DNA of 64,000 bases. It comes from Tomocerus qinae. Lineage: Eukaryota > Arthropoda > Collembola > Entomobryomorpha > Tomoceridae. The notes beneath the pieces were generated by a model. It had not been told where the DNA came from. It ran no database searches and saw only the letters and a program-made list of their open reading frames with translations. Location of the stretch: NCBI GenBank assembly GCA_020055645.1, contig CM034546.1:682001-746000 (forward strand), in the 5' to 3' direction. This document shows, in pieces, positions 9,738 through 61,228 of the stretch. Position numbers and translations under genes: made by a program. Each line of letters opens with the position of its first letter. Within the stretch, counting starts at the first letter, position 1.

Positions 9738-9796
9738 AAAATAAAATTTAAACTTAATTATTGACTGTGTTTCGTTCGTGGAGTTTAACGTAAAAC
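9738..9796. promoter_or_regulatory. Probable bidirectional promoter for NUF2 and the small membrane protein gene
   Basis: Only 59 bp separate the two divergent start codons. No TATA box is evident, which fits a housekeeping-type shared promoter whose start sites lie inside this interval. Confidence 0.45.
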
Positions 9797-26367: not shown

Positions 26368-28247
26368 ATGAAATTGTTAACTGTGATATATCCTATCATT
26401 TTCTTTGAAATAATTGAAAAAGTAAAATTACAATCATATATCGAGATAAAAGGTTTGGAATCAATTGTGTCGATGTTCTCACATTGTGCTGTCGTTTTCA
26501 TTTTTAAGAAAAGCCATTCTCCACTCTGGGCGACATCAATCGCTGTCAGCTCAAAGAAAGAGGATTTTTCCAAATTTAAGAATAATCGTTTTTCTTGAAG
26601 CAAAATATTCTAATTTTGTTGAGCAATTTTCTATCTGCTACCAAGACTATCAGCATTCAAGGAAATGTACGCGTAAAACCACCATTTTGTTATGAAAATT
26701 TTGGCTACAACACTTACATTTCGGACTTACCTGCTGCTAGTGTTATTTTTCATGAAGGAATTTCTTTAATGCTAACCGTCTATATTAATCCTTTAAAATC
26801 AATGCGAAATTTTCCATTGTATGACATAAAGTTTGAAAATTCTAGATTTAGAGATTATGTTGACATATTTTATCGTTCGAAAATATTATTTCAAAGGAAT
26901 CAAAACTTGGTACGCTCAATGGAACGTCTTCAATTAATGCGAAATTTATAAATCAATTCAAACCATTATACCGCTTGAGTTTAAGCTTAGACTTTATTTT
27001 CTTGACATTTATGTGGGAGGATTTGAAAGTCATCAATTCTGAAAACAAGCCCAATTTTCACTACAATATAATTGGAGGCGTTCTGAGACAGAAATTTGGG
27101 CCTTCTGCTCACATACCTCAAATACATGGGACTGGACAATGATGGTTTAAAATTTGTTACCTGTGCTGGAGTTTTTAATGATTACCTCTGGAAATCCTAT
27201 TTGGAACCTTATGATACAATTTTCTGGATATGTTTTTGTGTCGCCATGATATTGGTTTCAATGGTATTTACTTTTCAAAATGAAGTGCCACACACGGCAA
27301 AAAACTTGGAGCAAACCTTCTACAATTGTTATTCTTTTTTTGCTGAAATGTTGAAACAAGCGATCAAGATTGGCAAAGTTATGGACAAAGGAAAACTCGC
27401 TTTGACTTTTGGTATTTGAATGATTCTTGGAATTACTTGCAGCAATGGCTACAAAGGAATTCTTGTGAGTCGGCTGACGACAGTCCCTCCTCTTTAAAAC
27501 CTATATTCACCACTTTCAAAGACATCTCTAACTTTTCTGTGATTGGACCTACTAACTTGGTACGATATTTCATTACTAATGGTTATGTATCAAATCCAGA
27601 CTACTTAATTTATCTAGAATCCTGCCACGACAAAGTCAATAATGATTCTTGTAGAAAATTAAATCCCCTTTATTGTGCTTATCATTGAAACAACAGTGGG
27701 AAAGTCTTAGCTGATTATAACATAGCTGGAAACGAAATAACCGAATGGCTATGGCTCATGTTAAGAAAAAATAAAATCACACTCAATGATATACCTAAAA
27801 CAAAAACTTTGCCAATAAATTTAATATTGGGTAAATTGGAGCCACGTTGCAATATCGATTCCCAAAGTTATTTTGAGAAAACTAGAGAGTTTTTGAAGGA
27901 CTGCTCGTTGAGAAGGGCTTATCTGGACTACAGCAAGCAACTAAGCCAATAATATAGTGAATTTGTCTTTGAAACCAATAAGTATGCTACACTCAATGCT
28001 AACACGATTCCTCAAGCCATGATACTTCACATCCCTAATTACATTTTAATTAAACGACAACTCTACCTCAAAATGCAACATTTTATGTCATCCGGAATTT
28101 ATACACCATTTCAAAAATGGAATACATATTTTACTAGAAAAATTTATCAATCGCTGCACTTTCAGAAGAAATTCCCCGTGATTCACAGTCCATCCATTTG
28201 CTCAATTTCTATTTGTTTTGCACAACTTTGCAAGTTTTTTCCCTCTT
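26368..28247 (+). pseudogene. Broken ionotropic-receptor-like gene (copy 3)
   Basis: Homology to the receptor family can be followed from the signal peptide (MKLLTVIYPIIFFEIIEK at 26368) to the C-terminal region (IPNYILIKRQLYLKMQHF near 28030), but across all three forward frames. There are frame changes near 26500-26600, 26640-26700 and 26880-26960. About 40 codons are missing between DIKFE and the RFRDYVDIF block. A TGA at 27417-27419 sits in the pore helix, followed by a further frame change near 27470, a TGA at 27686-27688 and a TAA near 27950. The final transmembrane part is also shifted. LEPYDTIFW, CSNGYKGILVSR and CSLRRAYLDYS blocks remain recognisable. The damage is too extensive for a working gene. 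It lies just downstream of the Pao/BEL element, which landed outside the coding region. Confidence 0.88.
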
Positions 28248-28259
28248 AATATTTTGTTT

Positions 28260-30075
28260 GGAAATCTTTGGTGGCAAAATGTATACCGTATTAAATTAAT
28301 AATAGTTAATGAAAGTTAATTAATATTTAAACTAATGTTTTTCAGTTACACATTAATAGATTAATTATTCTTGTCAAAGTAAAGGTGACAAGAATTACCA
28401 ACCTTTTAATGTATATATTATGCTATGTATATTACATACTTTTCAGGATAGGTAAACTTTTAAAGTAGGTACTAATATGTATGCTTTTAAATTCATTATC
28501 AGATATGGCGAGTTGAATATAAAACTAGCCTCTCATAAACGGAGGAAAAATTTTCAATTTGTTAAACCATAAAATTTTTTGTATTGAAATGATTGATATA
28601 CCCTTCCATGAGATTTGTATAATTAATTGCAAACTGTATGCATAGAATACAACCCGAGACAGCTGTCATTAATTCTATCCGGATGGGGTACGGGTTGGCT
28701 AATACCAATGAGTCGACTTGTGCAAGGGAGGGAAAAGAAGTCTGTCCCGTGGCTTGCACGAATTAAACAAGAACAGACAAGTTCATTAAATATTTACGGC
28801 AACCGATTTAAATTGTTATGTCCATATTTCCTCCGATAATGCTGTTCATAAAAAAGTTTCAATGGTTTCTTTAAATATTCAATGTTAACAGAAATTACTT
28901 CGAAAAACTTTTGGAAGTATTTTATTGTTATACGCAAAGATGCAAATAAGGAAATATCGGCCTTAATAATAGAATCGCGGGAGGTCTATGAATAACGAAT
29001 ACTGCCACCACAATAAAACAAGAAGAGTCTAAACCAGTCCTTTATTACAATGAATCAGGAAACCACTGTAACAGTCCGCACGAAACTTTCATTAAAATGG
29101 ACATACTGATGTAGCAGGGCCGGGTCTAGCTTTTGCGGCGCCCTGGGGAAGGTGATTCCGCGAGGCCACATAAGCTATATATAACTATTCGAGTCGCTTC
29201 TATAAGACATGATATGCTACAAGTACTGATTCCACTTTAGTATAGCTAACCTTTCTGCTGCAATTGTCAATGTCTTAGAGCATTTGTCATTTGAATGCCA
29301 TTTTCTTCAGACAAACGAGAAGACAAAGTTGTAATCTAAGATTGTATTCCAGTAAAATTTAGATGGCTAAGATTATCGCCGAAAATGTTCGCTATGCATG
29401 GAATAAATCCGTTGTCAGTAAATAGTATTCATATTTTTCAAATTGCTTTCAAAAGTCAGTTAGTCTTAGCCTGAAAACAAAAACTTTGCCAAATCAAACT
29501 TCGGGTAGCAGAAATTTCACGTAAAAATTTTATTGTATATTTTCGAGCGAAGCGTAAAAACGTTTTTGGTGGTTGGTTGACAATTGTGGGCTAGTAATGA
29601 AAAGATATTATTTTTAGCACTCTGACAATTTTTGCATAGATTTCGTTTGTGGCGGCACAAAAAAGCAGTCTGCAAGGATTAATGAGCACTGCATGAGAAG
29701 CTCACTCAACCACAAAGTCGTCTACTGTTTTTAATTTTTTTTATATTATTCTTTTACTTCATTATCCTATCTCATTGTCATAATTCGTGTGAATATAGAA
29801 GTATCTTAGAAAAGAAAGTATCAAACGCAAAGTTTGAAAACTATTTGATGTGGCAAAACAAATGAATGAGGAAATGTCACCAGGAAGGCTATTCATCAGT
29901 TAATACTTAATACGTAAAATTCGGAAACCACTTCTACATTGCTTTGCAGTTGTATATATAACTGAAGTGATAAAAATATTTAGACACAAAATATAACTAA
30001 TACAAATCATAATAAGATTGAGTGTCAGCTACGGAAAACATTTAAAAAATACAGAAATTTAAATTTGTTTCTAAA
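28260..30075. other. Spacer, no gene seen
   Basis: About 1.8 kb, AT-rich. Near 29118 a GC-rich CAGGGCCGGGTCTAGC stretch resembles a hAT-type terminus, but no matching second end was found. The TATA-like TATATATAA at about 29952 may serve the next receptor gene. Confidence 0.4.
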
Positions 30076-32172
30076 ATGGAATTGCTGCTACGTGCAATAC
30101 TTTTCGTTGGATTCATTCCAGACGTAAAATCGCAATCATATATTGAGATAACTGATTTAAAATCAATTGTGGAGACATTCTCGGACTGTGCTGTCGTTTT
30201 CATTTACAAGCATAACGCCCCTCGTTTAGGTGGAGATTTCGGATTGCCTATAGTAGTATTGAATTCTGACCGGTATAAATTGCTGGCAACTCAGAGAAAG
30301 TGGATTTTCCAATATTTAAAAATAATAATTTCTTTTGAAGCAAGAGGCTCTTCTTTTATAGATCCAATGGCTATCTGCTATCAGTATTACCATTATTTTC
30401 ACCTACTGCAACGTAGAAAACCTCAATTTTGCTATGACTCGGTCGGGTACAACGTTTACATTTCGACCTTCAATGCTGACAACATTAATTTACGCGAAGG
30501 ACTCTCTTTAATGTTAACTGTGGATATAAATCTTACAAAATCAAGACCTAATTTTCCATCGTACGATATAAAGTTTCAACAAACTATTTGCTTTGGCTGC
30601 CCAATTTTTTCTAAGCAAAACAGTCATAACTCAACTATTATAAGTATAACAGAAATTAAAGCATTTCCTGACAGGGCTTTGGATAAAGAGTCAGCCATGT
30701 TAGGATTCAGGGGTTATGTGAATACAATTTACCGTTCTAAGATTGTATACGAAATAAGGAACTCAAAGCTTTGCCCTTTAAATGGAACTTGGTCGGTCGA
30801 CGCGAAATGGATGAATCCTTTCAAGTCATTAATCAGTCAGGGAATAGTAGATTTGGGTTTTATATTCCAAGCGTTTATGTGGGAGGATTTCAAAGTCATG
30901 CATTTACAAAATAAAATAAATTTTGAATTGTTTATTAGTAGTGGACTTCTGATACTGAGAAACGGACCTTCTGCGCACATCCCTCAAGTACATGTCGATA
31001 TTCAAGAATTGAAATTTATGACCTGCACTGGAGTGTTTGACAATTCTATCTGGACGTTTTATTTCGAACCTTATGATGCGATTTTCTGGATAACTTTTTC
31101 CGTAGTCATGATTTTGGGTTCGATAGTGTTTACCTTTCAAAACGGGTTGTCCAGAAATTTAAAAGAAATACTTTATAATTTGTATTGCTTCGCTGCCGCA
31201 ATGTTAGAGCAATCGGTCAGTATCGGCCAAATCATGGACAAAAGAAAACTCGGTTTGATATTTGGGATTTGGATTATTATTGGAATTATTTGTAGCAATG
31301 GCTACAAAGGAGTACTCGTGAGTCGGCTGACAGTTCCTCCTACTTTGAAGCACTCCTACAAATCCTTCAAAGAGCTCAACAACTTCTCTGTGATTTCGCC
31401 TGTTGATTTACAAATTTCTGCATTTCAGAGCGGTTATGTATTTCAAAGCAAAAACCTAAGAGATGTAGAGTTCTGTTTTCACAAAAGCAAAACAAAAGAA
31501 GATTCTTGTGGAAAATTGAATCCGCGCTACTGTTCTTCCAACAATAGTAGCCAAGTATTGGCTGAACATCAAATTTTTGGAAATGAAATCACCGAGTGGA
31601 CCTGGATTAAATTGACTGAACCCAAAATCATGATCGACGGTATGGCAAAGAAAAAGATTTTCCCAGATAGTTTTATTCAAGGAAAATTAGATTCACGTTG
31701 TCATAAAAACCTTCAAAGTTATTTTGAGAAAACTAGTTCGTTTATGAAGAACTGCTCTTTGAAAAGGGTCTACGTTGATTTCAGTAGCCGCCTTAACCTA
31801 TACAGCGACATAGTCTTTTCGAAAAAGTATGTCATACGAAATGCTAATTTAATTCCCCAAACAATGATGTACCACATCCCTAATTACACTTTAATCAAGC
31901 GACAACTCTACCTTCAAGTGCAACGGTTCTTGACAACGGGCATTTATATCCTCTTTCATAAATGGGACACACATTTTCGTAGACAAATTTATCAGTCAAT
32001 GAATTTTCCAATAGACAGCTCTCCTAATTCACAATCTATGCGTTTATTCGGTTTCCTTATTTTTTGTGCTTCTCTAACAGCGCTTTCTTTTCTAGTATTT
32101 TGTTTTGAATATATTTACATCAAAAGGTACACCAAGTATGTACTACATAAAACTTTGTGGATGTTATTCTAA
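30076..32172 (+). CDS. Divergent ionotropic-receptor-like channel, copy 4
   Basis: Intact single exon of 698 residues, close to copy 1 in length. The signal peptide is MELLLRAILFVGFIPDVKSQ. Family blocks are present in order: FSDCAVVFIYK, the FCYDSVGYN and CFGCP cysteines, FMWEDFKV, GPSAHIPQVHVD, FEPYDAIFW before M1, the pore LYNLYCFAAAMLEQSVSIG, the pore helix with CSNGYKGVLVSRLTVPP, the extracellular CSLKRVYVDFS, and a final helix (FGFLIFCASLTALSFLVFCF). A short basic tail follows. The gene is on the same strand as its relatives and ends about 100 bp before the fold-back element. Chemosensory function is inferred from topology and copy number. Confidence 0.78.
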   Translation: MELLLRAILFVGFIPDVKSQSYIEITDLKSIVETFSDCAVVFIYKHNAPRLGGDFGLPIVVLNSDRYKLLATQRKWIFQYLKIIISFEARGSSFIDPMAICYQYYHYFHLLQRRKPQFCYDSVGYNVYISTFNADNINLREGLSLMLTVDINLTKSRPNFPSYDIKFQQTICFGCPIFSKQNSHNSTIISITEIKAFPDRALDKESAMLGFRGYVNTIYRSKIVYEIRNSKLCPLNGTWSVDAKWMNPFKSLISQGIVDLGFIFQAFMWEDFKVMHLQNKINFELFISSGLLILRNGPSAHIPQVHVDIQELKFMTCTGVFDNSIWTFYFEPYDAIFWITFSVVMILGSIVFTFQNGLSRNLKEILYNLYCFAAAMLEQSVSIGQIMDKRKLGLIFGIWIIIGIICSNGYKGVLVSRLTVPPTLKHSYKSFKELNNFSVISPVDLQISAFQSGYVFQSKNLRDVEFCFHKSKTKEDSCGKLNPRYCSSNNSSQVLAEHQIFGNEITEWTWIKLTEPKIMIDGMAKKKIFPDSFIQGKLDSRCHKNLQSYFEKTSSFMKNCSLKRVYVDFSSRLNLYSDIVFSKKYVIRNANLIPQTMMYHIPNYTLIKRQLYLQVQRFLTTGIYILFHKWDTHFRRQIYQSMNFPIDSSPNSQSMRLFGFLIFCASLTALSFLVFCFEYIYIKRYTKYVLHKTLWMLF

Positions 32173-43935: not shown

Positions 43936-45728
43936 AATTTTTATAGTAATTAATTATGATTCACAATCATTTATGTTATATTAATAGTGAGGTATGGGGT
44001 TTTATAATCATTTAAAAATAGGTGCTGAAACTAGAATGGTCTAGTCTTAGCAGGTGCTGTAATTATCTCTGTCTCGTTTCAACAGGGTGCTGAAAGGAGA
44101 TTTGGTCTATTTTCAGCAGGTGCTGGAACTGAACAAAATCTCGTTTCAGCAACTGCATCTGCTGAAACGAGATCCCGGTAAAAATCTCCTACTATAACCC
44201 TAGATTTTAGATGGCTTATCCATGGGTTGATCTGAGTTCACAGAGTCAGACAAGTTTGTATAGTCAATAGTGACTCCTACACTACTTTGCAGATAATAAG
44301 GATTTTCACTTATAATCCCCCCACCACCATAGCCAAACACAGTCTAGAGTCGAGTCTAAGTACCTTCTTGTAGAAAATCTTGTAGCAAATCTAACCGACT
44401 CTAACGCAAATGATTAAGAAAAACTGGGTAAATTATTTTTTGAACAAAAGAAGCTGAAAATGTTTGGAAAACTTTTATTAACAACTTATTGATTTCACAA
44501 AAAATACTTTCCTCCACTCTGAACGTACCGGTGCGGTGCACGTTCAACTTTTGTATGCATGTGGACAATTTTCAATATGTTTTAAATATATACATACTAA
44601 ACCTTGAGAAAAATTACCTATTATAGTATTAACAAAGTCAAGAATCCGTATTTTATAAGTCGAGTTCAAAGGGCACAGTTAGTTACAGGATATTTGCTCC
44701 GTTTTGTCGCAAATGTGTTAAAAAATACCAAAAATAAGACTGCCTTAATAACACTTAGACATTTCCTTTTGGAGGTAAAACTCAAAGAAGAAAATGAAAC
44801 TTGTATGTTAATTATTAGTGGATTAAATTATAATTACATGCAGCAGTTGTAACATGGAAAGGCATACATTAGGTTATATATTAGGTACATTAGTACTCGA
44901 AGTAAGTATCTTAAGCTCCTTATTAGTTCGTGCTACCTTAATTTCCTAAACCGTTGTGCAATGATGGCTGCGTCATAAAATATCCTTAATTCGAATGGTA
45001 TGTGTTTTAGTCGACTGTGGGACGCCAAAATTCTGTCCGGTTTAGAAAAAAATTGGCCTCAAAACCAGGGAGTGCTAAATGGCATACTACAGGTACTTTA
45101 GCATACTATATATACATAATATATTACATTTTTTTAAAATTTTATTACATTACATACGCAGGATTGTGAATTTGTTTTTTTGAATTTTGATAAATATCAC
45201 AACCCACTTCACTTTTTGCCCTTTTTGCCCATCAAAGTGGAAAATGTGCCTATAGATATAAATCTATAAATATATAAATTCAAATAGAATAAAATAAGTT
45301 GTAATTTGTATGTCCTACGTTATAAAAGTTACATAAAATGGCATTATTATTTTGTCATGTGAAGCGAAGGTTTGCAACAACTTCTAATTCAATCATAATA
45401 CTGCTCCACATATGTAGAGAATGCCATTATAAAAAGTTACAACGGCATAAAGGCAACCGTTTTTATGCCCTACTTATAATAACTCCTGAAATGTAATTTT
45501 TGGGTTTTTCACAATATATACGATAATGGGCACTAAAGCTCCCTCAAGGACGGCACCTGGGAAATAGCCACCTGGAAATTAGTTGCGTCTTCTACATTTT
45601 GTCTATGGATAGAACACTGTAAACTACCTGATTATTTGCATTTGTATGATAATTACTTAAAACGTTTACAGGGAGCATATACCAGATTGTTAACATGGAG
45701 GCAACAGACGGAAGAACAACTAAGTGCA

Positions 45729-48700
45729 ATGTCATCCGGCAAAAATATCTTTGAGGTAGAAAAAAGTGCATATTATAAAGACTCTATTGCCATTGTCGGA
45801 CACAGCTGCCGATTCCCTGGAGCCAACAACATTGACGAGTTTTGGGAGCTGATTAAAAGTGGAGGCGATGGAATTCGGTCGGTTCCAGTGGAGAGACTTT
45901 CGGAAAGTCAACTCAACGATGTGAGATATACAGAATCGAAGGCTGGATTTCTGAAATGCCCGATCGACGAGTTCGATGCCAAGTTTTTCGGAATCAGTCC
46001 TCGAGAGGCGGCTTTTATGGATCCACAGCAGAGGCTTGTGGCTGAAGTGGCTTGGGAAGCGTTGGAAAATGCGGCAATCGATCCACATTCTTTGAAAGGG
46101 AGTAACACGGGAGTATTTACTGGAGTGTGGACACACGACTACGAAAGAGTGATTGCCGAAAACTCAACTGCACAAGATTTTCACCATGTGATCCTTGGAA
46201 ACGCCTTTTCTGCAACATCCGCGAGAGTTTCTTACTTCTTGGGTCTCAATGGACCGAATGTGGCTACAGAGAGCGGCTGTTCCTCTTCGATGGTGGCTCT
46301 TCACCTGGCTTGCGACAGTCTCAGGAAAAGGGAAACCAATTTGGGTTTGGTGTTGGGGGCTAACATAATTATTCTGCAATTGCCACTCGGGGATATTCCA
46401 ATTCTGGCCAAAGATGGTCACTGTAAAACTTTCGATGAATCGGCGGATGGGTTTGGCCGAGCAGAAGGAGTGGCCGCAATTGTTTTGAAAAGATTGCCAG
46501 ATGCAATTAAAAATGGTGACAGGATTATGGGCATTATTAGAGGGACAGCAGTGAGTAACGAAGGAACATCTTCCAATTTCGGAACTCCGAGTAAACTCTG
46601 TCAGCAAATTGCTATAAATCATGCTTTGAATAATGCACGAGTCAAGCCAGGAGATGTTGATTATGTAGAGGCACATGGAACTGGAACCCCCATTGGGGAT
46701 CCCATTGAATTCGCCGCCATTTCCGCTGGCTACACTGGAGAAAGGGAAAAACCACTTTTAATTGGGTCGGTCAAGACAAATATAGGTCATACTGAATCGG
46801 CAGCTGGTTTGGCTGGACTAATGAAGGTCATTCTGGCGATGGAGCATGAAGAGATTCCTCCACATAGAAATTTCACTAAACTAAATCCAAGTATTGACTT
46901 AGATATTGTTCCAGCTATTATTCCTCTCGAATCTACACCCTGGTTGAAAAACCCTGAAAGAACTCGAATTGCGGGTGTGAGTTCATTTGGAATAAGTGGG
47001 ACCAATGTCCATGTAATTGTGGAAGAGCCGCCGTGCGATACAAAAACACGGCCTGTAGAACTAAATACTCTTGAGTCTGAAAAATCTCATAATATTTTAA
47101 CTCTGTCTGCAAAATCAGAAAATGCTCTCAAAGATTTGACCAATCTTTATGCAAAGTATTTGAACAATAACCCAGCCGTTAGTATTACTGATCTTACTCA
47201 CACCTGTAATACAGGACGAGCACATCACAAGTACCGGTTAACAGTTACTGGGAAATCCGTGGCTGATTTTCAAAAAACTTTAGAAAGTGATGTGCATATT
47301 CCACAAACACTTAATGATAAACCCAAAGTGGCCTTTCTGTTTACTGGACAAGGTTCGCAATATACAGGAATGGCCAAGTCTCTGTTTCAGTCTAATTATG
47401 TATTTAACCAAGCATTCACTGAATGTGATAATATTATTAAAAATAATATTGGCATTTCATTGAAAAATGCTTTGTGGAACGACTCAGTTGGTAATCTATT
47501 AGATCAAACAGTTTGTAGCCAACTTTCCATTTTTGCAGTTGAATACGGTCTTTTGAAATTGTGGGAAAGTGTGGGAATTATTCCAGATGTCGTTTTAGGG
47601 CACAGTGTAGGCGAATTTGCTGCTGCGGTGGCTGCTGGGATAATTAATCTAGAGGACGCTTTAAGTTTGCTTGCTGAAAGAAGTAGATTAATTCAGAGTC
47701 TCCCACCAGGTGGAATGATTGCTGTTCGTTCACCAAAAGAAAAAGTGTCTAAATTAATTTCGGAATTTTTAAATATATATTCGGATATGTGGCTGGATAT
47801 TGCTGTTATCAATTCCGAGGAAGAAGTGGTCGTGGCTGGAAGCAAAAATTCAATTGAAACTTTTAAAATATTTTGTGACAATAATGAAGTAAAGATTCAG
47901 GTTCTTGCAGCTTCTCATGCTTTTCACTCTCGAGATATGGATAAAGTCATGAAAGAATTCGGAGAGTTTTCAAGTAAATTATCTTACAAATATCCGACAT
48001 GTCATTACGTATCAGGAACTACAGGTAAACATCTGTCTAGCAATGAAATGGAGGATGGAAGTTATTGGGTGAGACATGCAAGGGAATCAGTCAATTTCCA
48101 ACAAGGTATGTTTACACTGGGTGATCTCGGCTGCAATGTTTTTGTAGAAATTGGAGCACATCCTGTATTGTTGGCATTAGGGATGAACAACTTAAATGGA
48201 TCAGGAAGTGAATTGTGGCTTCCTTCTTTAAGACGAAATAAGGACGACTGGGAAACGGTTTTGAGTAGCATGGGGACATTGTATAAAAATGGAGTAAATA
48301 TTAATTGGGAATCTTTGGATAAATCATGGTCACGGAGAAGGTTGCAGTTGCCAACTTATCCATTTCAAAGGCAAAAATATTGGGCTGAATTGTCTGGAGA
48401 TATCAGTGACAAAATAATTCATCCTCTTCTTGGAAAGAAGGTTTCGGTAGCTGATGTACCCCATCATGTTTACGAACACGTTTGGAATTTACGAGATCTG
48501 CAATACATAAAGGATCACCAAGTTGCGCATATAATCGTTTTACCTGGTGCCGGATTTTTAGAAATTATTTTAGCCGCAGGAAGGGATATTTTTTCGAAAA
48601 ATAAGGAAAATAATTTTGGTCTGCTTACTGTCAAAGATTTTGTGGTGGAATCACCATTGGAGATGGAAGAAGGAAGAAAATACAAAATTCAAGTAGTTGC

Positions 48701-51700
48701 ATCGCCTGTAGAAAATGAGGCCGGAACCTTCCATGTCAAGGTGTATATGTTTAGAAAACTTAATGGCTACAATGACGAGAAAGGTTGGAAACGATATTCA
48801 AGTGCAAACGTCACTCTTAGCGAATCTGTAATTTTACCATTCAAGGATAAATCGGTGGAAACAAATATTTCGGAAAAAGATAAAGAAATCAAATCTGAGA
48901 CTAGATATCTGACAGAAGAAATTGATCTTGTTAAAAGTCGTTGTCCTACTACAATGGATTCTAAAGAATTTTATAAATTGGCTCCAGAGATTGGAATATT
49001 TTTTGGCGAGACTTTTCAAAGCATAGATTCAGTTTGGGTGGGAGAAAATGAAGCTATGGCTTTAATTCCATCACCGACAAAAGAAGGAAATTTAGCTGAT
49101 TATGTTTATCATCCAATAGTTTTAGACGCCATGATTCAACTATTCGGGTTAAGTATTGGAAAGGATAACGTAGACCTTTATTTACCAGTTGGCATTGATA
49201 GTGTTTTTCTGGTGGACGATTCTGTTTCCTCAGAGATGTTTGCCCATGCAAAATGGTGTGAAGATAAATCCCAGGGAACTGTTGCTCTTTATAATGACAG
49301 AAACATCTTACTCGCAGTTGTTGTGGGTATCCGACTTATAAAGACATCTGTCAGTTCATTTCTGAATGTGATTAATTCTCACAAGAATATGTTACCCGGT
49401 ATGTACCAGGAAGTGTGGAGACAAAGAGTAGGGCCAGTGCAAGCTAGAATAGACGTTAAACAAATAGTTGACACCGAAGATATCATTGAGCCACTTGCAG
49501 CTAGTATGGAACAACATATGCATTTGTTTGAACTGGAATGCCAAACAAAGTCTGACGAGGGTGTAAAGTGCGGCATAATGAAAATGTTTCGACAAAACGG
49601 ATTTTCACCTAAAGTAGGAACTGTTTATTGCATCGAAGAGTTTCTTCAAAACTACTTGATACATCCCGAACATCGTCTATTTGTAAAGCGGTTGTTTGAA
49701 TTTTTATGTGAAGATGGTTACGGTCAAGAAATTCACAACGAATCTGGATTTATGGATGAGTGGAAATGCATTAAAGAGTTTCCAACTCTTGAGGAAATTG
49801 AAAAGAGTATTTCGGAGATTGACAGTTTCATTCATTGCGAAGGTGCAACAGTAGGACGAACTAGAGCATGTGAAATTGTTCAACGTTGTTTGAAACACAA
49901 TTGGGATGTTTTAGTAGGAAAGAGAACGGCTGTGTCTGCCCTATTCGGAAGCGAAGATTTGAATCCATTAGATATCTACACGAAGAGCAATGAATGCGTT
50001 GTAGCAAACATGCGAGCGGGAAGATATCTTGGCTTAGCACTTAAAGAATTTAAGTCAGATCCAAAAAAAGAAGATTCGATTGTTAGGATAATAGAAATAG
50101 GAGCTGGCAGTGGAGCTACGACGAAAGAAATTTTGGCAATTTTACAAACAGAGGAAATCCCATTTCGTTACACTTTCACCGATGTTTCGCCTCATTTTCT
50201 TGAAGGAGCAAAAGAACAATTTTCAACATTAAATGGAGTTGACTATAAGGTGTTGGATATAGAAAAAGACCCAACCGGACAGGGATTTTGTCCCCAGCAT
50301 TATGATGTAGTTGTGGCTGCTAATGTCATCCACGCAACTGCCGATTTAAAAAGATCGATGACTAACATTCGTAAATTGATTCGTACCGATGGCATTTTGT
50401 TATTGGAGGAGATTACTGATCCAAGTAGAGCAATTGATTTCATTTTCGGCGTTTTGGAAGGATATTGGAAATTTACCGATTTCGATGTGCGATCCCGTCA
50501 TCCGATGGTATCTCCACAAATTTGGAGTAAAGTTCTGGATGAAACGGGATTTACCGAGGCTATTAATGTTTCATCCCAAGATGAATTTATCACTGTTTTA
50601 TCATCTCGAGCTGTAGATATAACATGCGAAACTACAAATTCACTAGATATCCTGAATAAAACAAGCCACAAGAAATCAGCTTGGCTAATTTTTGGAGAAG
50701 ATTATGATTTGTCAATTCATATTCGAGAGAAGGTTTTATCTGTATCCGATGAGGTAATTTTAATTCAAAATGAAAAGAAGGAATTAAAAAAATGTCAGCA
50801 CATATTGTCTTGTAACCAAACCGACATTGATTCCTTAAAAGTAATTACATCGCCGTTATTAGATAAATATCAAGTTAAAGGTATAATATATTTAGCTACC
50901 AACACTGACGATGAAAATAGTCAGTTGGTGTTTAAATCTATATTAAATGTTTTTAAATTCACATCCGAAGCTGCGTATCACAATTTGCAGTTCGTTATTG
51001 TTACTAGAGGCGTGTATTACTTACAAAATCAGAAGACAATGTGTCCGTTTAACGCCGTAATATGGGGAATGGCAAAAAGCATTGTGAACGAAGTTTCAAA
51101 ATTGCAATGGAAAATGATTGATTTAGATCCAGATGAGTCTGACTATGAAGTTGATAGTCAACAAATATTTTTTGAAGTCTTTGAGCAAAAAGAACTTTTG
51201 GTTTCGTTTAGAAATAAGAAAAAGTTTGTATCGAGAATAATAACTCTGCCAAAGACATTAGCTCCTTTGACACTTCCTAAAGGACGATTTACAATTGATA
51301 TTCCTAAAACGAAGAAAATTAACGACGTCAGTTTCTCCTCGATGGAGAAGGAGCCTCTTAGTTCTAAACAGGTAGAAGTTGTAGTTAGAGCTGTCGCGTT
51401 GAATTTCAGAGACATTTTTGTCATTCTCAAGCCGGATATGTTTGCCTCATTGAAGGAGACAATAGGATCAGATTTTTCAGGCATCGTTTCTAATATTGGC
51501 CCAGATGTCACTAAAGTTAGTATCGGGGACGAAGTTTATGGAATTGCACTAACCAGTAGTGCAGCTAGTCATGCTATAACTCACGAGGACATAATCATAC
51601 ATAAACCAAAAGAAATGACCTTCACAGATGCTGCTACTCTCCCGTCTGTTTTATTTACAGCATTTTATTGCATGGTGACTGTGGCGGATTTGAAAAAAGA

Positions 51701-54692
51701 TGAAAATATTCTAATTCATGTTGCCTCTGGAGGGGTTGGATTAATTGCCATCCAAATAGCCAAAAGAATCGGAGCTAAAATAATTGCCACTGCCGGTTCT
51801 CATCGAAAAAGAAATTACCTTCGGACTTTGGGGATTGAGCATGTTTTCCATTCCCGAGATTTGACGTTTGGAGATGAAATAGCTAGAGTGACGAATGGAC
51901 GAGGTGTAGACATGGTTCTCAATTCTCTGACTGGACACGGATTCAAAGAAACAACTCTCAAAGCTTGTGCACAAAATGCACGTTTTGTGGAGATTGGGAA
52001 AGTCAATATCTGGAAGCCGGATGAAGTCCTGGAATTACGACCCGATGTTCAATACACAATTGTAGATTTGGAAAAGTTGACAAGTACACAAATGGGGGAT
52101 TTGATATATCAAATGAAATCCCACAGCAATAAGGATTACAAAGCATTGCCATATTCCAGATATGATGTCGTAAATATTAGAGATGCTTTAAATTATTTTC
52201 TGAAAGCCAATCACATAGGGAAGATTGTGGTGACTATGCCGGACTTAGTTGAAGTAGGAAATCAGGTCACCATAAAAGACGTAATGTTTAGTTCCACTGC
52301 CACGTATTTAGTTACAGGAGGTTTAGGTGGAATTGGGCTTGAAGTTGCGAAATGGATGGCAGACTCAGGTTGCAAGTATCTTGTTTTGGTTGGTAGATCT
52401 GCACCAAGTGAAGCTGTTTCACAAGTTCTTAATAATTTAAGAGCGAAGGGTTGCAAAATATTTTCATTCCAAGTCGACATTGGAAATTGGGATCAATGTA
52501 GATCTCTTTTCGAAACAATCTCCTCACCCCAACTTAGGCTTCCTCCTCTAAGAGGCGTGATTCATTCTGCTGGAGTCATTTCTGATGCAATTTACATGAA
52601 CCAAACGTGGGAAAAATACCAAACCGTTTTTAATGCTAAAATCGCAGGATGTCTCAATTTACACAAATTGACTAAAGATTTGCATTTAGAACATTTTGTT
52701 TTATTTTCATCCATGGCTGGTTTGGTCGGTCCAATGGGACAAAGCAATCATGCCGGAGCCAACGCTTTTCTAGATTCCTTTGCTAGTTATCGGCAGTCTA
52801 TTGGTCTTCCTGCTCAGACAATAAATTGGGGAGGATGGTCAGAAGTCGGAGCTGCTTCTAATACTGCTTACGGAAAAGAAGGTCTGTTTGGTGTCAAGCC
52901 ATTTACACCCAATCAAGGCATTGCGTCTTTAAAATTTATCATGAGTCGGCCGGACTTGTTACAAGTTGGTGTCGTTCAGATAGATGTAGATGAATTTAAA
53001 CAGCACTTTGGCATGGGGAATATATTATCAGAATTAGAAGCATACGACAATAAAGAGTCTACGAATTCTGCTGCTGCCATTCAATCAGAAAAGTTTTGGT
53101 CTGAAATTGGACCACTTAGTGCGGAGGATAAACATTCTTATATTAAATCCAAAATCACTGCAATCATCAGAAGGACGTTGAAACTGCCAGAATCAGAGGC
53201 CATTGACGAATTTCAAACTTTCCAAGAAATGGGATTGGATTCTTTAATGGCTGTCGAAATGAAAAACAAACTTCAAAATATCGTAGGGAAAAGAATAACT
53301 TTGAATGTCTCAGCAATGATGGATCATCCAACTATAAACTCACTTAGTAAATATTTACTTGAGCAAATACTAGCAGCAGCCACCGATGCTGATTCTCAGG
53401 AACAGAGAAAAGAAGTGAAAGAAAAGGAGTGCACACTTGAAGAAATGTACGAGTTGGTAAAACAGGATGCTAAGCTATCGGAAGAAATTCAGGCTCCACA
53501 AAGTTACAAAACGCAAACTAAAATAACTTCTATATTGCTAACGGGTTCAACAGGTCAGCTAGGGGCATATTTGTTACAAAATTTAACCCAAATTGATGGA
53601 TTAAAAATTTGTTGTTTGGTCAGAGGAAAGTCAGCAGAACAAGCACGGAAGAAATTGATAGCCAATTTGAAAAAATTTGACATATTGGATAATATAAATT
53701 TAGATAGTATTACTGTCATCATCGGTGATATCACACTCGATAATTTAGGAATTCCTGCAGAAGAATACAGTAATTTTTCGACAGAAATTGACATGATTAT
53801 TCATCTTGCAGCCAAAGCAAATCACGTAGAAAAATATCAAGTCAATAAGGGCAATAAAAATGATATTCGGTCAGTCAATGTGATAGGAACGGTTAACATT
53901 CTTAGATTTGCTTCGAATATCAGAACAAAGAGAGTTGTATTTCCATCTTCATTTTCATCCATAAATCGTCTAACGGATGATGGATTCATTTATGAAGATT
54001 TTCCTGATGATGAAAATAATGCTGACTGCATTACAATGGGCTATTCTTTGTCCAAATTTGTTTGTGAAAAGTTATTAAGACAGGCAAATGAGCGAGGAAT
54101 TCCTTGTACTGTAATTAGATATTCGAGCATTTTAGGGCACAGCGAGACGGGGCTTTATATGACAAACAAAAATTCGGTTGTAAATCAACTTCTCTTTTGC
54201 CTCCGACTTGGATCAATTCCGAATGTTGAAGGTTGTTGGTTCGGAATTCCTGTTGATGTGGCTAGTAAGCTAACATCAGAGCTGATTTTCAACGATAAAG
54301 TCCAATCTGCTGTTTATAATATTGTTCAACCAGTTCCCATGTATACCAAAGATTATATTATGGTAGCTGAAAGACTCGGTTTTCACTTGAAACTGGTAAG
54401 TGTGGAAGAATATGCAGAAATGATTCAAAAAGAAATTGAGGGTAGCAGCTTCCTAACCATTTTTAACGATGGTTACGGGAGAGATCTGTCGCACACAGAA
54501 CTTTCCAAGAACCATCCGAAATTCCGAGAGTTTTTAGAGAAAGGAATTAACACAAACAAAATTAGTGACAAGTGCAGGGAATTAATTCCCGATATCAACG
54601 AACGGATTCCTCATCCTCACGATATTTATTACGTATGTTTGCAATTCGCCCATCGAACTGGTGTTTTTGAAAAGTTTGGAATTGTACGGTAA
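45729..54692 (+). CDS. Highly reducing type I polyketide synthase, KS-AT-DH-MT-ER-KR-ACP-reductase, single exon
   Basis: Numbered from ATG 45729 the product has 2,987 residues. KS: C184 (ESGCSSS), H316 (VEAHGTGT) and H354 (NIGHTES). AT: S626 in GHSVGE; HAFH at 730-733 predicts malonyl-CoA. DH: H930 and D1133 (DAMIQ), with His for the usual Gly in HxxxGxxxxP. C-methyltransferase: EIGAGSGATT near 1457. A structural KR half is followed by ER (HVASGGVGL near 1997). KR: TGGLGGIG 2196-2203, S2328, and His 2341 where Tyr is normal. ACP: S2505 (GLDSL). Terminal thioester reductase: GSTGQLG 2606-2612, Y2772 and K2776 (YSLSK). It should build a methyl-branched, reduced chain and release it as an aldehyde or alcohol. 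The frame is open back to 45537 without an ATG; that stretch (DNYLKRLQGAYTRLLTWRQQ) resembles a docking coil, so an upstream exon is possible. The gene resembles bacterial or fungal enzymes more than animal fatty acid synthase, suggesting horizontal origin. Base composition matches its surroundings. Confidence 0.93.
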   Translation: MSSGKNIFEVEKSAYYKDSIAIVGHSCRFPGANNIDEFWELIKSGGDGIRSVPVERLSESQLNDVRYTESKAGFLKCPIDEFDAKFFGISPREAAFMDPQQRLVAEVAWEALENAAIDPHSLKGSNTGVFTGVWTHDYERVIAENSTAQDFHHVILGNAFSATSARVSYFLGLNGPNVATESGCSSSMVALHLACDSLRKRETNLGLVLGANIIILQLPLGDIPILAKDGHCKTFDESADGFGRAEGVAAIVLKRLPDAIKNGDRIMGIIRGTAVSNEGTSSNFGTPSKLCQQIAINHALNNARVKPGDVDYVEAHGTGTPIGDPIEFAAISAGYTGEREKPLLIGSVKTNIGHTESAAGLAGLMKVILAMEHEEIPPHRNFTKLNPSIDLDIVPAIIPLESTPWLKNPERTRIAGVSSFGISGTNVHVIVEEPPCDTKTRPVELNTLESEKSHNILTLSAKSENALKDLTNLYAKYLNNNPAVSITDLTHTCNTGRAHHKYRLTVTGKSVADFQKTLESDVHIPQTLNDKPKVAFLFTGQGSQYTGMAKSLFQSNYVFNQAFTECDNIIKNNIGISLKNALWNDSVGNLLDQTVCSQLSIFAVEYGLLKLWESVGIIPDVVLGHSVGEFAAAVAAGIINLEDALSLLAERSRLIQSLPPGGMIAVRSPKEKVSKLISEFLNIYSDMWLDIAVINSEEEVVVAGSKNSIETFKIFCDNNEVKIQVLAASHAFHSRDMDKVMKEFGEFSSKLSYKYPTCHYVSGTTGKHLSSNEMEDGSYWVRHARESVNFQQGMFTLGDLGCNVFVEIGAHPVLLALGMNNLNGSGSELWLPSLRRNKDDWETVLSSMGTLYKNGVNINWESLDKSWSRRRLQLPTYPFQRQKYWAELSGDISDKIIHPLLGKKVSVADVPHHVYEHVWNLRDLQYIKDHQVAHIIVLPGAGFLEIILAAGRDIFSKNKENNFGLLTVKDFVVESPLEMEEGRKYKIQVVASPVENEAGTFHVKVYMFRKLNGYNDEKGWKRYSSANVTLSESVILPFKDKSVETNISEKDKEIKSETRYLTEEIDLVKSRCPTTMDSKEFYKLAPEIGIFFGETFQSIDSVWVGENEAMALIPSPTKEGNLADYVYHPIVLDAMIQLFGLSIGKDNVDLYLPVGIDSVFLVDDSVSSEMFAHAKWCEDKSQGTVALYNDRNILLAVVVGIRLIKTSVSSFLNVINSHKNMLPGMYQEVWRQRVGPVQARIDVKQIVDTEDIIEPLAASMEQHMHLFELECQTKSDEGVKCGIMKMFRQNGFSPKVGTVYCIEEFLQNYLIHPEHRLFVKRLFEFLCEDGYGQEIHNESGFMDEWKCIKEFPTLEEIEKSISEIDSFIHCEGATVGRTRACEIVQRCLKHNWDVLVGKRTAVSALFGSEDLNPLDIYTKSNECVVANMRAGRYLGLALKEFKSDPKKEDSIVRIIEIGAGSGATTKEILAILQTEEIPFRYTFTDVSPHFLEGAKEQFSTLNGVDYKVLDIEKDPTGQGFCPQHYDVVVAANVIHATADLKRSMTNIRKLIRTDGILLLEEITDPSRAIDFIFGVLEGYWKFTDFDVRSRHPMVSPQIWSKVLDETGFTEAINVSSQDEFITVLSSRAVDITCETTNSLDILNKTSHKKSAWLIFGEDYDLSIHIREKVLSVSDEVILIQNEKKELKKCQHILSCNQTDIDSLKVITSPLLDKYQVKGIIYLATNTDDENSQLVFKSILNVFKFTSEAAYHNLQFVIVTRGVYYLQNQKTMCPFNAVIWGMAKSIVNEVSKLQWKMIDLDPDESDYEVDSQQIFFEVFEQKELLVSFRNKKKFVSRIITLPKTLAPLTLPKGRFTIDIPKTKKINDVSFSSMEKEPLSSKQVEVVVRAVALNFRDIFVILKPDMFASLKETIGSDFSGIVSNIGPDVTKVSIGDEVYGIALTSSAASHAITHEDIIIHKPKEMTFTDAATLPSVLFTAFYCMVTVADLKKDENILIHVASGGVGLIAIQIAKRIGAKIIATAGSHRKRNYLRTLGIEHVFHSRDLTFGDEIARVTNGRGVDMVLNSLTGHGFKETTLKACAQNARFVEIGKVNIWKPDEVLELRPDVQYTIVDLEKLTSTQMGDLIYQMKSHSNKDYKALPYSRYDVVNIRDALNYFLKANHIGKIVVTMPDLVEVGNQVTIKDVMFSSTATYLVTGGLGGIGLEVAKWMADSGCKYLVLVGRSAPSEAVSQVLNNLRAKGCKIFSFQVDIGNWDQCRSLFETISSPQLRLPPLRGVIHSAGVISDAIYMNQTWEKYQTVFNAKIAGCLNLHKLTKDLHLEHFVLFSSMAGLVGPMGQSNHAGANAFLDSFASYRQSIGLPAQTINWGGWSEVGAASNTAYGKEGLFGVKPFTPNQGIASLKFIMSRPDLLQVGVVQIDVDEFKQHFGMGNILSELEAYDNKESTNSAAAIQSEKFWSEIGPLSAEDKHSYIKSKITAIIRRTLKLPESEAIDEFQTFQEMGLDSLMAVEMKNKLQNIVGKRITLNVSAMMDHPTINSLSKYLLEQILAAATDADSQEQRKEVKEKECTLEEMYELVKQDAKLSEEIQAPQSYKTQTKITSILLTGSTGQLGAYLLQNLTQIDGLKICCLVRGKSAEQARKKLIANLKKFDILDNINLDSITVIIGDITLDNLGIPAEEYSNFSTEIDMIIHLAAKANHVEKYQVNKGNKNDIRSVNVIGTVNILRFASNIRTKRVVFPSSFSSINRLTDDGFIYEDFPDDENNADCITMGYSLSKFVCEKLLRQANERGIPCTVIRYSSILGHSETGLYMTNKNSVVNQLLFCLRLGSIPNVEGCWFGIPVDVASKLTSELIFNDKVQSAVYNIVQPVPMYTKDYIMVAERLGFHLKLVSVEEYAEMIQKEIEGSSFLTIFNDGYGRDLSHTELSKNHPKFREFLEKGINTNKISDKCRELIPDINERIPHPHDIYYVCLQFAHRTGVFEKFGIVR

Positions 54693-57245: not shown

Positions 57246-59059
57246 TGAAATTGCATTTTCAGTGAAGCAGAAAAAAATACTTGCGAGCACAAAATCATCT
57301 TTACATTATATACATTACATTTTCAATTATCGATTAAATACTAAATTGCTGCATGTTCTCACTTTGCTGATGTATAAATAAATTAAATATTTCATCCGCC
57401 GTATTTCTTGCTTTAAACGTCGAGAAATATTTGTGAAGGAGTCGAATACGGAGAATAATTGCCTTTATTAATTAAGAAAAGAGATTTCCTTTAACTTTTG
57501 GTTTAAGTATTAATCAGTGATCTAACTAAATACTAAACATGGACTCATCATTTTTTACAAACCCCAACCTCCTTGACATATAGCGCCAACACGTCGAAGA
57601 ACGAAAAGCAAGAAGAAGAAGAACAGGTTTTGGAGTCAATCAAGTTATTGTAGGTCTTGGTTTGGCCCTGGAAGGATCTAAAATCGAGAAGTGGAGGTGG
57701 ACAAGTGAATCCGAAGAAAGAAGCAAAAATTTCATTTTTTGGCGGGTTGTATTTAGACTTGGATGGCAGGGCCATTAGAAGGTATTATGGAAAAGTCGGG
57801 ACAAGTCCGAGCAAAAAATGAGACAGATCATTAGGAAAGAATCGGAAAAGTTTCAGTGGACTCGTTTTTGAGTTATGACCGAAATGGTCGAAAAATAAAA
57901 TTTGAATTTCAAATGTAGTTCACAGCAAAGGAGAACGACAGAGCTGAAAAGTCATGTGAATTTTTGTTCTCTCACAGGTATTAGGTACATTTCCTCATTT
58001 GCCGCTCAAGCAACGCATTGTTTCTGCTCTAACTACTTTCGTTCTTATTCCTGTAGAAAATTCCTACTTCGGAGGAATTCCGCTAGTTGCTTATATAGTG
58101 GTAGCTAACGACCCACGTTAAAGTGGAGAAACCCTGGAAATATTTATCAAAACCGTATTTTGGGCAACTGTACAGATAATTGCCTTTTGTTATACTAAAT
58201 ATTTGATAATAAAATTACAACGGTCTATCCATAGTATAAGAACTGTTTAATGGCCATTCCGAAGAAATTAAAGTTTTCCGGTTGTCCTTTCTTTTCATGC
58301 AGCAATACCTTCAATTTTAGATATATAGTCCAATGTCCAATCATAATTATCTATGCTGAAGTTTTTAAATAATTAAAAGGTTTGCTACTTCAAAAAAGTT
58401 GGGTTTATTTATTCAACGATATCATTGGTATTCAATATGCACCTTTCATACGACTCGAATTAAAAAGAAATACACTCTAATCTAAGCTAATATTTATGAA
58501 GGGACATTATGAGAATACGGATATCCGGATAGCCGATGAATAAAGCTTATTCAAATTAGGTGTACTTCGGTACTTGGCACTCAGCAAATTGAAATACCCA
58601 TCATTGTTATGAGAAAAGAAAGTTTTATTGCTCGCACAGGAATCAGCAAAAGCCATTTATAATTTGAATTCATGAGACATTGAAGTTATTAAGCCGTAAC
58701 ATTATAAAATATGGCCTGCGCAAGATGTAGATAGGAGTGAGATGGAGAGGAGGAGCTATTGAAGTAAGGAAAAAAGAATTTTCAACTTTTCGGCAAGTGT
58801 GTTTCTGCTCGCCCTCTTGCAACGACAAACTTGTGGTCTGTCTGTCGTGCTTCGCCATTTCTTCGAGTTTGTATCGTGGAATTTCTAGTATTCATCCCCC
58901 AGAATCGGCACATTCTTGCACTGAATCCTTTGACTTATATTAATAGTTTAGTGACGGGTTTGCGAATAGTATCCTAACGCTTACACTAACATATGTAGGT
59001 TTAACTATTAATAATATTGATTCTGAGCCTGGAATAAATGCACCCTTAACTCTCCCAAA
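57246..59059. other. Intergenic, no firm gene
   Basis: AT-rich. A possible decayed frame starts at 57539 (MDSSFFTNPNLLDI then TAG) with further coding-like sequence rich in Arg/Glu up to 57730, but it has no known domain and is broken. Short frames at 57902-58108 and 58737-58943 are unsupported. Confidence 0.35.
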
Positions 59060-61228
59060 ATGAAATGTCAACTGTTTCCCATTCTATTCTTTGCAATCAT
59101 TCCAAAAATAAGGCCGCAACTATATTTAGATGAGATAGTTGATTTAGAAGTAATTTTGTGGACATTCCCAGATTGTAACATTCTTTTTATCAGTAAGAAC
59201 TATTCCCCGAGATTAGAAAGGGATTTTGGTGTGTCAATTACAATTATACGACCCAATCAATCAAATTTGGTCTCAAATCGAAGAAAGTGGATATTTCCAT
59301 ATTTAAAAATAAACATTTCATTTGAAGTTAAGAGTTCTAATTTTGTTGAGCCATTTTCTGTTTGTTATCAAAACTATAAAATTCAAGTAAATTTACCTGA
59401 AAAACCTCAATTTTGTTATGAAACTTTGGGCTACAACATCCACTTGTCACCTTTCACAAATGCTAATGTCGATTTGTTGGAAGGACACTCTTTGATATTG
59501 AGCGTGGGCATTAATCCTTCAAAATCTAAAGAGAATTTTTCATCGTACGACATAAAGTTGGAACAAATTCTGTGCAATGGCTGTCCAACTGTTTCTAAGC
59601 AACCAAACACACCATCATTTGCTAATATAACGAGCATTAGAGCCGTTCCTGTCGATTTTTTGGGGAAAAAACACACAATTTCCAGATTTAGGGAATATGT
59701 GGATACATTTCACCGTTCCAAAATTGTATATGAAGTACGGGACTCAACACTTCATCCTCTAAATGGAACATTGTCGATTGATGCAAAATGGATAAATCCT
59801 TTCAAACCACTGCTTAGCCAGCGTTTGAGTTTAGATTCTATTTTCGAAGCATTTATGTGGGAGGACTTCCAAGTCATAAAGCCAGAATTTAAATTGTACA
59901 AAATAACTGGGGGAGCTCTGATGCGGAAATACGGTCCCTCCCCACACATCCCTCAAATACACGTTGATATCGATGACATAAAATATGTGACCTGTGCTGG
60001 AGTAGTTAATGACTTTCTCAGGTTATCTTATCTGGAGCCATATGATACAGTTTTCTGGATAACGTTTTCTGTAGCCATGATTTTAGTTGCGACAATATTT
60101 ACCATTCAAAATGGAATGCCAGACAAAAAATTAAATTATAAAGATGTTTTTCACAATTTTTATTGTCTTTTTGCTGCAATGTTAGAACAAGCAGTCCTTG
60201 TTGGTCTATCGATGGACAAAGGAAAACTGGTTTTGACATTTGGGATTTGGATTATAATTGGAATTACATGTAGCCATGGGTACAAAGGAATTCTTGTGAG
60301 TCGACTGACAGTTCCCCCCACTTTGAGAACCTCTTATGCCTCTTTCAAAGAACTTCACAACTTTTCCGTAATTGGGCCTATGGATTTAAAATTGTTTTTT
60401 ATTAAAAACGGCTTATCGAAACAACGCAACTTAATGTATTTAGAATTTTGTTCCGATAAAAACAAAACAAATGAAGATTCATGCGGAAAGATAAATCCAC
60501 GCTACTGTCGTCATCACTTAAATAGCAATGGAGACATTTTACTGGAGCACGAGATATTTGGAAATGAAATCACCGAGTGGGCATGGATTATGTTGACAGA
60601 AAATGAGTTCGTAGTCAATGGTGTAGCAAAGACAAAGACTTTACCAACGAATCTCTTGCTTGGTTTACTAAAGAGACGTTGCTTCAAAAATTCTCAAAGC
60701 TATTTTGAGAAAACTAGATCATTTTTGAAGGACTGCTCGTTGAAAAGAGCTTATGTTGATTATAGAAGTCGACTAAGCCAATACGTTGACTTTGTATTCG
60801 AAGAAAGGAAGTACGTAGTAAGCAATGCCAACACAATCCCACAGACACTAGTCCTTCATGTTCCCAATTACCCCTTGTTGAAACGACAACTCTATCTCAA
60901 AATGCAACACTTCATGTCGTCCGGGATTTACGTTCTCTTTCAAAAATGGAATGTTCATTTTGGCAGAAAAAATTATCAATCGCTGCATTTTCCAAAAGTT
61001 GCTCATGATCCACAGTCTATACGCTTATTCAGTTTCTTTCATTTTTGTGCTTTCCTAACTGCGTTTTCTGTTGTACTGTTTTGTCTCGAACACTTTTGCA
61101 GAGGATCCTTTAACATTGTTAAAAGCTTGCTACTCGCAAAGTTTCAAAACTGTTTTACTTTTAATGAAGACCAAGTTGACAAGGAAATGATTTTCTATGG
61201 TCGTTTTGAGAAAATTATGAGCAAATGA
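59060..61228 (+). CDS. Divergent ionotropic-receptor-like channel, copy 5
   Basis: Intact single exon of 722 residues. It is separated from the rest of the family by about 27 kb, including the GT8-like and PKS genes. The leader is MKCQLFPILFFAIIPKIRPQ. The family cysteines (FPDCNIL, FCYETLGYN, CNGCP), FMWEDFQV, GPSPHIPQIHVD, LEPYDTVFW before M1, and the pore FHNFYCLFAAMLEQAVLVG are present. The pore helix reads CSHGYKGILVSRLTVPP, with His for the Asn that the other copies share. The last helix is followed by a longer cytoplasmic or luminal tail of about 45 residues rich in Lys and Phe. Role inferred as for the other copies. Confidence 0.78.
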   Translation: MKCQLFPILFFAIIPKIRPQLYLDEIVDLEVILWTFPDCNILFISKNYSPRLERDFGVSITIIRPNQSNLVSNRRKWIFPYLKINISFEVKSSNFVEPFSVCYQNYKIQVNLPEKPQFCYETLGYNIHLSPFTNANVDLLEGHSLILSVGINPSKSKENFSSYDIKLEQILCNGCPTVSKQPNTPSFANITSIRAVPVDFLGKKHTISRFREYVDTFHRSKIVYEVRDSTLHPLNGTLSIDAKWINPFKPLLSQRLSLDSIFEAFMWEDFQVIKPEFKLYKITGGALMRKYGPSPHIPQIHVDIDDIKYVTCAGVVNDFLRLSYLEPYDTVFWITFSVAMILVATIFTIQNGMPDKKLNYKDVFHNFYCLFAAMLEQAVLVGLSMDKGKLVLTFGIWIIIGITCSHGYKGILVSRLTVPPTLRTSYASFKELHNFSVIGPMDLKLFFIKNGLSKQRNLMYLEFCSDKNKTNEDSCGKINPRYCRHHLNSNGDILLEHEIFGNEITEWAWIMLTENEFVVNGVAKTKTLPTNLLLGLLKRRCFKNSQSYFEKTRSFLKDCSLKRAYVDYRSRLSQYVDFVFEERKYVVSNANTIPQTLVLHVPNYPLLKRQLYLKMQHFMSSGIYVLFQKWNVHFGRKNYQSLHFPKVAHDPQSIRLFSFFHFCAFLTAFSVVLFCLEHFCRGSFNIVKSLLLAKFQNCFTFNEDQVDKEMIFYGRFEKIMSK

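Follow-up and report, generated by a model that had tools for sequence, protein, structure and literature searches.

The window, a stretch of 64,000 nucleotides corresponding to C1:682001-746000 on a 140-Mb contig of a 334-Mb springtail assembly, contains on its plus strand a single stop-to-stop frame (45537-54692) that runs for 3051 aa without a stop or frameshift. Along the encoded protein, Pfam orders the domains as KS-AT-DH-MT-ER-KR-ACP-TR, and the frame and this order bear out the original prediction of an uninterrupted 9-kb polyketide synthase (PKS) frame with KS-AT-DH-MT-ER-KR-ACP-reductase. The KS (45780-46874; ESGCSSS, EAHGTGT and KTNIGHTE; ketoacyl-synt, E-value 8.9e-73) is followed by an AT (47334-48296; GHSVG and HAFH; Acyl_transf_1, 9.8e-58), a DH recognised by Pfam and motifs (48420-49256; PKS_DH_N and PS-DH, about 5e-19), a C-methyltransferase (MT, 50070-50555; Methyltransf_12, 5.9e-17; nearest solved chain CurJ, 167 bits), an ER recognised by Pfam and a motif (51366-52232; ADH_zinc_N, 7.6e-19), a KR (52299-52844; KR, 2.2e-65), an ACP (53151-53357; GLDSLMAVEM; PP-binding, 4.5e-11) and a terminal thioester reductase (TR, 53532-54431; NAD_binding_4, 3.3e-47; nearest solved chain MxaA, 136 bits), all on the plus strand. 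With KS, AT, DH, ER, KR and ACP in one chain, this is a reducing type I PKS. The best NCBIfam models are those of bacterial type I PKSs, the best 25 of 133 all scoring below their curated cut-offs; the TR reaches 200 bits against TIGR01746, for which the cut-off is 213.

The gene had also been taken to consist of one exon. The 9-kb frame is indeed unbroken, but it appears to be the main exon only, starting in phase 0 and extending from 45672 to 54692 on the plus strand, with the stop codon at 54690-54692. Directly before it, an AG at 45670-45671 forms a probable 3' splice site: the same AG precedes an identical phase-0 codon in all 21 family copies that we fetched, these copies being related and not independent, and it is from this codon onwards that the protein can be aligned across copies. 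As the AG is universal among the copies and an in-frame ATG at 45729 is present in only some of them, the start codon probably lies in an upstream 5' exon. Similarity comparisons among the upstream stretches of the copies, made in search of this exon, returned scattered or repeat-like matches and similarity beside the acceptor only.

Elsewhere in the window, five frames (13594-15747, 17005-19287, 27087-28249, 30046-32172 and 59027-61228) appear by eye to belong to one divergent, ionotropic-receptor-like family; only that at 17005-19287 matches Lig_chan, and does so below the cut-off. A BEL/Pao retroelement at 20077-25943, fitting an arthropod, consists of two overlapping frames (DUF1759, RVT_1, Peptidase_A17 and DUF5641), and in the putative NUF2 region, at about 9794-12079, exon-like coiled-coil pieces can be seen by eye, separated by short gaps.

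The catalytic motifs of the KS, AT, DH, MT, ER, ACP and TR are kept in the window and in nearly all of the 20 to 21 copies, the departures being found in single copies (ASRAFHSR in an AT, NVLHTGKT in an MT and TGSTSHLG in a TR); from one copy, L037, the part from KR to TR is missing from the frame. The KR is the exception. At the position where most KRs carry their catalytic Tyr, its motif GQSNHAGAN has a His, and this is true of all 20 copies with a KR in frame; of the four bacterial KRs picked up by the search pattern, that of Nostoc has a His and the other three have a Tyr. The statement that every domain is intact is therefore right for the catalytic motifs searched for and in need of qualification for the KR, where the His may, judging from the motif, weaken ketoreduction. 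Read from the domains, the AT, whose HAFH motif we take to be of the malonyl type, would load malonyl units and the KS would condense them; the MT would methylate the chain at carbon with SAM; the KR, DH and ER would act iteratively in reduction, as far as the KR His allows; and the terminal reductase would free the chain as an aldehyde or alcohol. We can only guess at a cuticular or defensive role for the product; the cuticle chemistry of springtails is described as unusual and little studied (PMC10825826), with no tie of the window PKS to it.

The gene does not stand alone, and the original prediction missed both the more than 100 sister loci found by our genome scan and the KS core that is shared among part of them. 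The scan with a KS model gave at least 127 matches (163 candidates, 123 scored); merging of fragments reduced these to at least 123 KS places and, after removal of one fatty acid synthase (FAS) and nine multimodular KS, to at least 113 places of the family, the window included. In this search, as in those for the KS tract, the AT control, Chitin_bind_4, DIOX_N and condensation domains, only scored candidates were counted, and the numbers are thus lower bounds. Of the 113 places, 48 (with the window) entered our tree and the others are counted by their KS match alone; similarly, full-length data come from 20 uninterrupted copies, again with the window, and one interrupted copy, the remainder being KS pieces or places. 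The frames are of at least 2880 aa at 45 places, of 2300-2880 aa at 16, of 1000-2300 aa at 15 and shorter at 37, and the short ones may reflect introns or decay. A stop falls inside the KS match at two places; at L059, on C4, the KS frame breaks and then resumes in another frame, as at introns, and at L066 it ends early. Among the 21 long copies, L037 alone is interrupted, with frames of 2154 and 868 aa, and for this reason it was excluded from the dN/dS analysis, the fourfold pair comparison and the tree of the 3' part. The family would have spread mostly along one chromosome: 85 of the 113 places are on C1. A group of family KS places, mostly with short frames of 300-400 aa and including L059 and L066, is found at C4:6.3-8.0 Mb.

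The 20 full copies form 190 pairs, with medians of 0.146 for dN, 0.910 for dS and 0.16 for dN/dS (range 0.125-0.229), and the family is kept by purifying selection. The earlier view that the gene is maintained is supported by this ratio.

A protein of bacterial type in a long frame could be symbiont or contaminant DNA misjoined to the host, and this was one reading that had to be weighed. It would have to account for at least 113 family places spread over five contigs of 24-140 Mb, for a splice acceptor present in each of the 21 copies and for intron-like breaks in the KS frame of relatives, after which it resumes. The window PKS itself is flanked on both sides by long frames of one gene family (30046-32172 and 59027-61228), and its composition is host-like, as had been proposed, GC3 of the PKS copies being 0.31-0.34 and the GC content of the window 30-41%. 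Given all this, we regard a misjoined foreign sequence as scarcely credible and treat the family as integrated in the springtail genome. The same assembly has at least 114 matches to Chitin_bind_4, a marker family of arthropods.

A phylogeny of the KS had been set as a test of the foreign origin, and it places the KS with bacterial cis-AT enzymes and outside metazoan FAS. In the tree of 73 rows, whose references were 18 bacterial rows and three FAS without fungal, amoebal or other animal PKSs, and among which long branches are flagged, the 48 family KS form one clade (100/100) on a stem of 0.7 changes per column; this clade joins bacterial cis-AT KS and the multimodular KS of the same genome at 97/94, and FAS stands apart at 100/100. 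Nine of 75 KS were kept out of the tree as duplicates (L016, L017, L067 and L068), near-copies (L001 and L006-L008) or partial (L013), and L059 is without a full KS. All 48 placed family KS have ESGC followed by SSS, ASS or SSA, most other rows having DTACSSS. In identity, the window KS is closest to CurL (48%), three cyanobacterial KS (46-47%), EryA1 (42%) and MAS (41%), compared with 29-32% for three FAS. Against solved structures, the KS scores 552 bits with 7zma (the best, with two KS stretches summed), 406 with CurL, 375 with Ery and 342 with MAS, followed by Dictyostelium Pks16 at 293 and LovB at 272.

These comparisons also bear on the idea that the window PKS is a metazoan FAS or an animal FAS-like PKS (AFPK), a natural thought given that AFPKs are common and indeed dominant in arthropods and that a few of them carry a terminal reductase (R) domain (PMC10764717). 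With those few, the window PKS has in common the arthropod host and the terminal reductase; the KS, however, is of FAS type there and of bacterial PKS type here (PMC10764717). No FAS is found among the best 60 of the 77 solved chains that match the window KS, while the KS of the animal's own FAS, a separate and intron-bearing gene located elsewhere, matches mammalian FAS at 353-356 bits, EcPKS1 at 252 and CurL at 171. For the whole window protein, the scores are 791 bits for MAS (two stretches summed), 737 for CurL and 682 for an Ery chimera, against summed scores of 460 for the FAS 8vf7 and 384 for EcPKS1. Though AFPKs enter this comparison through bit scores only, a FAS or AFPK identity is in our judgement extremely unlikely.

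We infer from these sequence relationships a horizontal origin of the family, which would go back to a single gene of the bacterial cis-AT type. The original prediction of an acquisition from bacteria or fungi was right in so far as the enzyme is of bacterial type and not a metazoan FAS, but no close donor was found, long matches reaching at most 39%. A tblastn search of plasmids left 4290 of 4290 records below 60%, with the long matches listed at 28-34%; a scan of bacterial contigs with only six short peptide patterns gave five loci at 26-39%; and in five genomes the best match was 36% over KS-AT, with short pieces up to 45%. A scan of viral contigs with six short peptide patterns, a weak test of viral origin, gave no match. 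The lack of a close bacterial relative in the plasmids, contig scan and five genomes, together with the long stem and thus deep origin of the family, would fit genes that had descended vertically from an old animal PKS without any transfer. On the other hand, the family groups with bacterial cis-AT KS and not with FAS, and other authors have called springtail PKSs transfers (PMC5490193 and PMC10764717, as far as their descriptions go). Vertical descent thus seems to us doubtful, while keeping an appreciable chance, and transfer is the reading that we favour.

The most unusual property of the family lies within the KS. A tract of 741 bp (45984-46724 of the window, plus strand) is nearly the same at all 25 family places of C1:0.4-12.5 Mb; it includes the Cys of the active site and the first catalytic His but stops short of the second. 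A DNA search of the genome with the tract (40 places scored of 100 candidates, all 40 overlapping KS places of the genome scan) found all 25 at 95-100%: 20 at 100% as rounded, the window itself included, and the others at 99, 99, 97, 97 and 95%. In a control stretch from the AT, the 24 other loci are at 76-92%. The mean fourfold difference of the 190 pairs is 0.029 inside the tract versus 0.454 outside, being lower inside in each of the 190; median dS by domain is 0.86-1.66 but only 0.22 for the KS (with saturated pairs dropped, 134-190 of 190 were used). In steps of 30 codons, the fourfold difference is 0.008-0.041 at residues 166 to 375, rises to 0.17 and 0.09 in the adjoining steps and is 0.3-0.5 farther out; at a resolution of 10 codons, the edges fall at about 45,980 and 46,720. 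In 17 of the 21 copies, 0-2 of the 738 sites depart from the consensus, the numbers for the remaining four being 6 (L018), 19 (L034), 21 (L020) and 39 (L035), and the divergence of the copies has no relation to their distance along the chromosome. A second, short dip is seen in the ER at 51882-51971 (residues 2116-2145), where the fourfold difference is 0.14, perhaps marking another small conversion tract.

Synonymous sites are thus uniform inside the tract and not in its flanks or in the family sisters, and the group of C1:0.4-12.5 Mb is evolving in concert. A recent origin of the copies does not explain the flat KS core, as a tree built from the sequence 3' of the tract shows structure, 12 of its 17 inner branches being starred. 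Neither does a synonymous constraint common to the family, as 37.5-64% of the tract's fourfold sites are different between the window and the sisters L040, L043 and L045. Selection on the nucleotides themselves, through an overlapping signal or a small-RNA target, would suit a tract that is almost invariant across some 740 bp; yet the protein of these sisters differs by just 5-10%, and 3' of the tract no equally long stretch behaves alike, with no window of 246 codons falling below a fourfold difference of 0.38. We consider such selection very unlikely. The bounded tract in one group is instead explained by gene conversion.

Near-identical repeats are where assembly errors arise, and the tract was judged from the assembled sequence, which brings up a more technical reading: one consensus sequence may have been given to many loci by the assembler or by polishing. 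The AT control speaks against this, as copies that are 8-24% off the window there could be mis-mapped only if the tract had been near-identical beforehand, and a consensus step would have removed the 6-39 differences that four fetched copies retain inside the tract. An artefact is unlikely, if somewhat less so than selection on the nucleotides, and we retain gene conversion as the source of the tract.

Beyond the group, the places that follow are at 91, 87, 83, 80, 80 and 79% in the tract versus 84, 79, 76, 74, 73 and 73% in the AT (for example, 91/84% at C1:40.8 Mb, 87/79% at 128.1 Mb and 79/73% at 77.6 Mb), and this excess likeness of the tract is partly plain protein constraint. Among 26 other KS pieces, from which L059 and L066 were left out, the median fourfold difference of the 325 pairs, mostly near saturation, is 0.68 for the tract and 0.67 for the 3' edge. 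Close pairs give a mixed contrast (L038/L041, 0.078 in the tract and 0 of 20 and 0.19 at the edges; L039/L046, 0.26 in the tract and 0.40 and 0.22 at the edges; L060/L061, 0.54 in the tract and 0.48 and 0.17 at the edges), and conversion is therefore supported for the one group only. GC3 of the tract is raised (0.407, with 0.333 in the three sisters), but the 5' edge, which is not homogenised, is equally high at 0.408, and GC-biased conversion gains little support. The GRINS of bacterial PKSs are known for an intense nucleotide skew over a repeated stretch; in the window copy, with which this comparison was made, the tract is not skewed more strongly than the rest of the gene.

The process that we propose is ectopic gene conversion, which would repeatedly overwrite some 740 bp surrounding the active site of the KS in 25 loci. 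As conversion overwrites the KS tract, the condensing core would stay common while the part from AT to TR diverges; the tract is probably short because the flanks have diverged beyond the near-identity on which conversion depends. We consider it likely that the elements hold jointly, that is, that the springtail carries an integrated, large family of reducing, single-module PKSs of bacterial type, kept by selection, with the KS core converted in 25 loci. To the wider picture we lean with less assurance, judging it slightly better than an even bet: a library of more than 100 PKS loci in which about 25 genes over 12 Mb form one conversion pool and diversify in tailoring and release, with a multimodular PKS on the same chromosome. 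If true, a fixed condensing engine would be combined with changing parts for methylation, reduction and release.

Type I PKSs as such are already known from springtails, and an arthropod PKS has precedents: 30 type I PKS clusters, held to be foreign in origin, were reported from Folsomia candida in 2017 (PMC5490193), and one of its PKSs, OXA62418.1, is named in PMC10764717. Both are arthropod genomes with numerous type I PKS genes; they are set apart, by description and not by sequence, by 30 clusters versus at least 113 KS places, and KS-core conversion is absent from the description of F. candida in PMC5490193 and PMC10764717. What look new are the scale and the sharing of the KS core. Among solved structures, CurL/CurJ, mycocerosic acid synthase and the erythromycin PKS are nearest in KS-AT and MT; compared with the bacterial cis-AT modules, the window PKS is a single module that ends in a terminal reductase of its own, carries ESGC where they have DTAC around the KS cysteine and is encoded by a host gene that is probably spliced. 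Homogenisation by internal recombination, or concerted evolution, of KS and AT domains is known from bacterial PKS clusters (PMC4256081, as there described); the bacterial case is within gene clusters, whereas here the genes are separate, at distances of as much as 12 Mb along an animal chromosome, and the tract edges lie inside the KS. For KS-core conversion among dispersed animal PKS genes, we found no report among the titles and abstract openings listed by our literature searches. A large lineage-specific set of PKSs in a eukaryote is also described for Dictyostelium (PMC3188802; PDB 9nju), though the KS of Pks16 is farther from the window KS than that of CurL (293 vs 406 bits).

Polyketide making in animals is mostly credited to FAS-like enzymes or symbionts, and a family of more than 100 places, many intact and under selection, would make an arthropod the source of its own natural products and offer a system in which to study the retention and diversification of PKS genes by a host. 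The KS tract would show conversion acting in nature on single domains of dispersed megasynthase genes, and it touches on the question of how a PKS can swap domains and still work.

The genome has other candidate biosynthetic genes. A DIOX_N search gave at least 19 matches. The best of them lies in L076 (C1:120031200-120032400), a frame of 374 aa of the 2-oxoglutarate oxygenase type, with 489 and 450 bits to two solved oxygenases and 93 to isopenicillin N synthase; this best match lends no support to a beta-lactam pathway, and L076 is possibly another transferred gene. Condensation domains of NRPSs, a class surveyed in animals (PMC10531068), occur in frames of 1602-2456 aa at C1:108415927-108418740, C1:41016451, C1:39005011, C1:41173166 and C1:60143135. 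A second type of PKS (L001-L008; C1:34004020-34019998, C1:35263003-35286506 and C100) has nine DTAC-type KS about 7.6 kb apart and frames of up to 3769 aa. In the three of eight pieces scanned for domains, L004 and L005 read ER-KR-ACP-KS-AT and L003 reads ACP-KS-AT, and the KR Tyr is normal in seven of the eight pieces; going by this arrangement, it looks like a multimodular assembly-line PKS, apparently on an arthropod chromosome.
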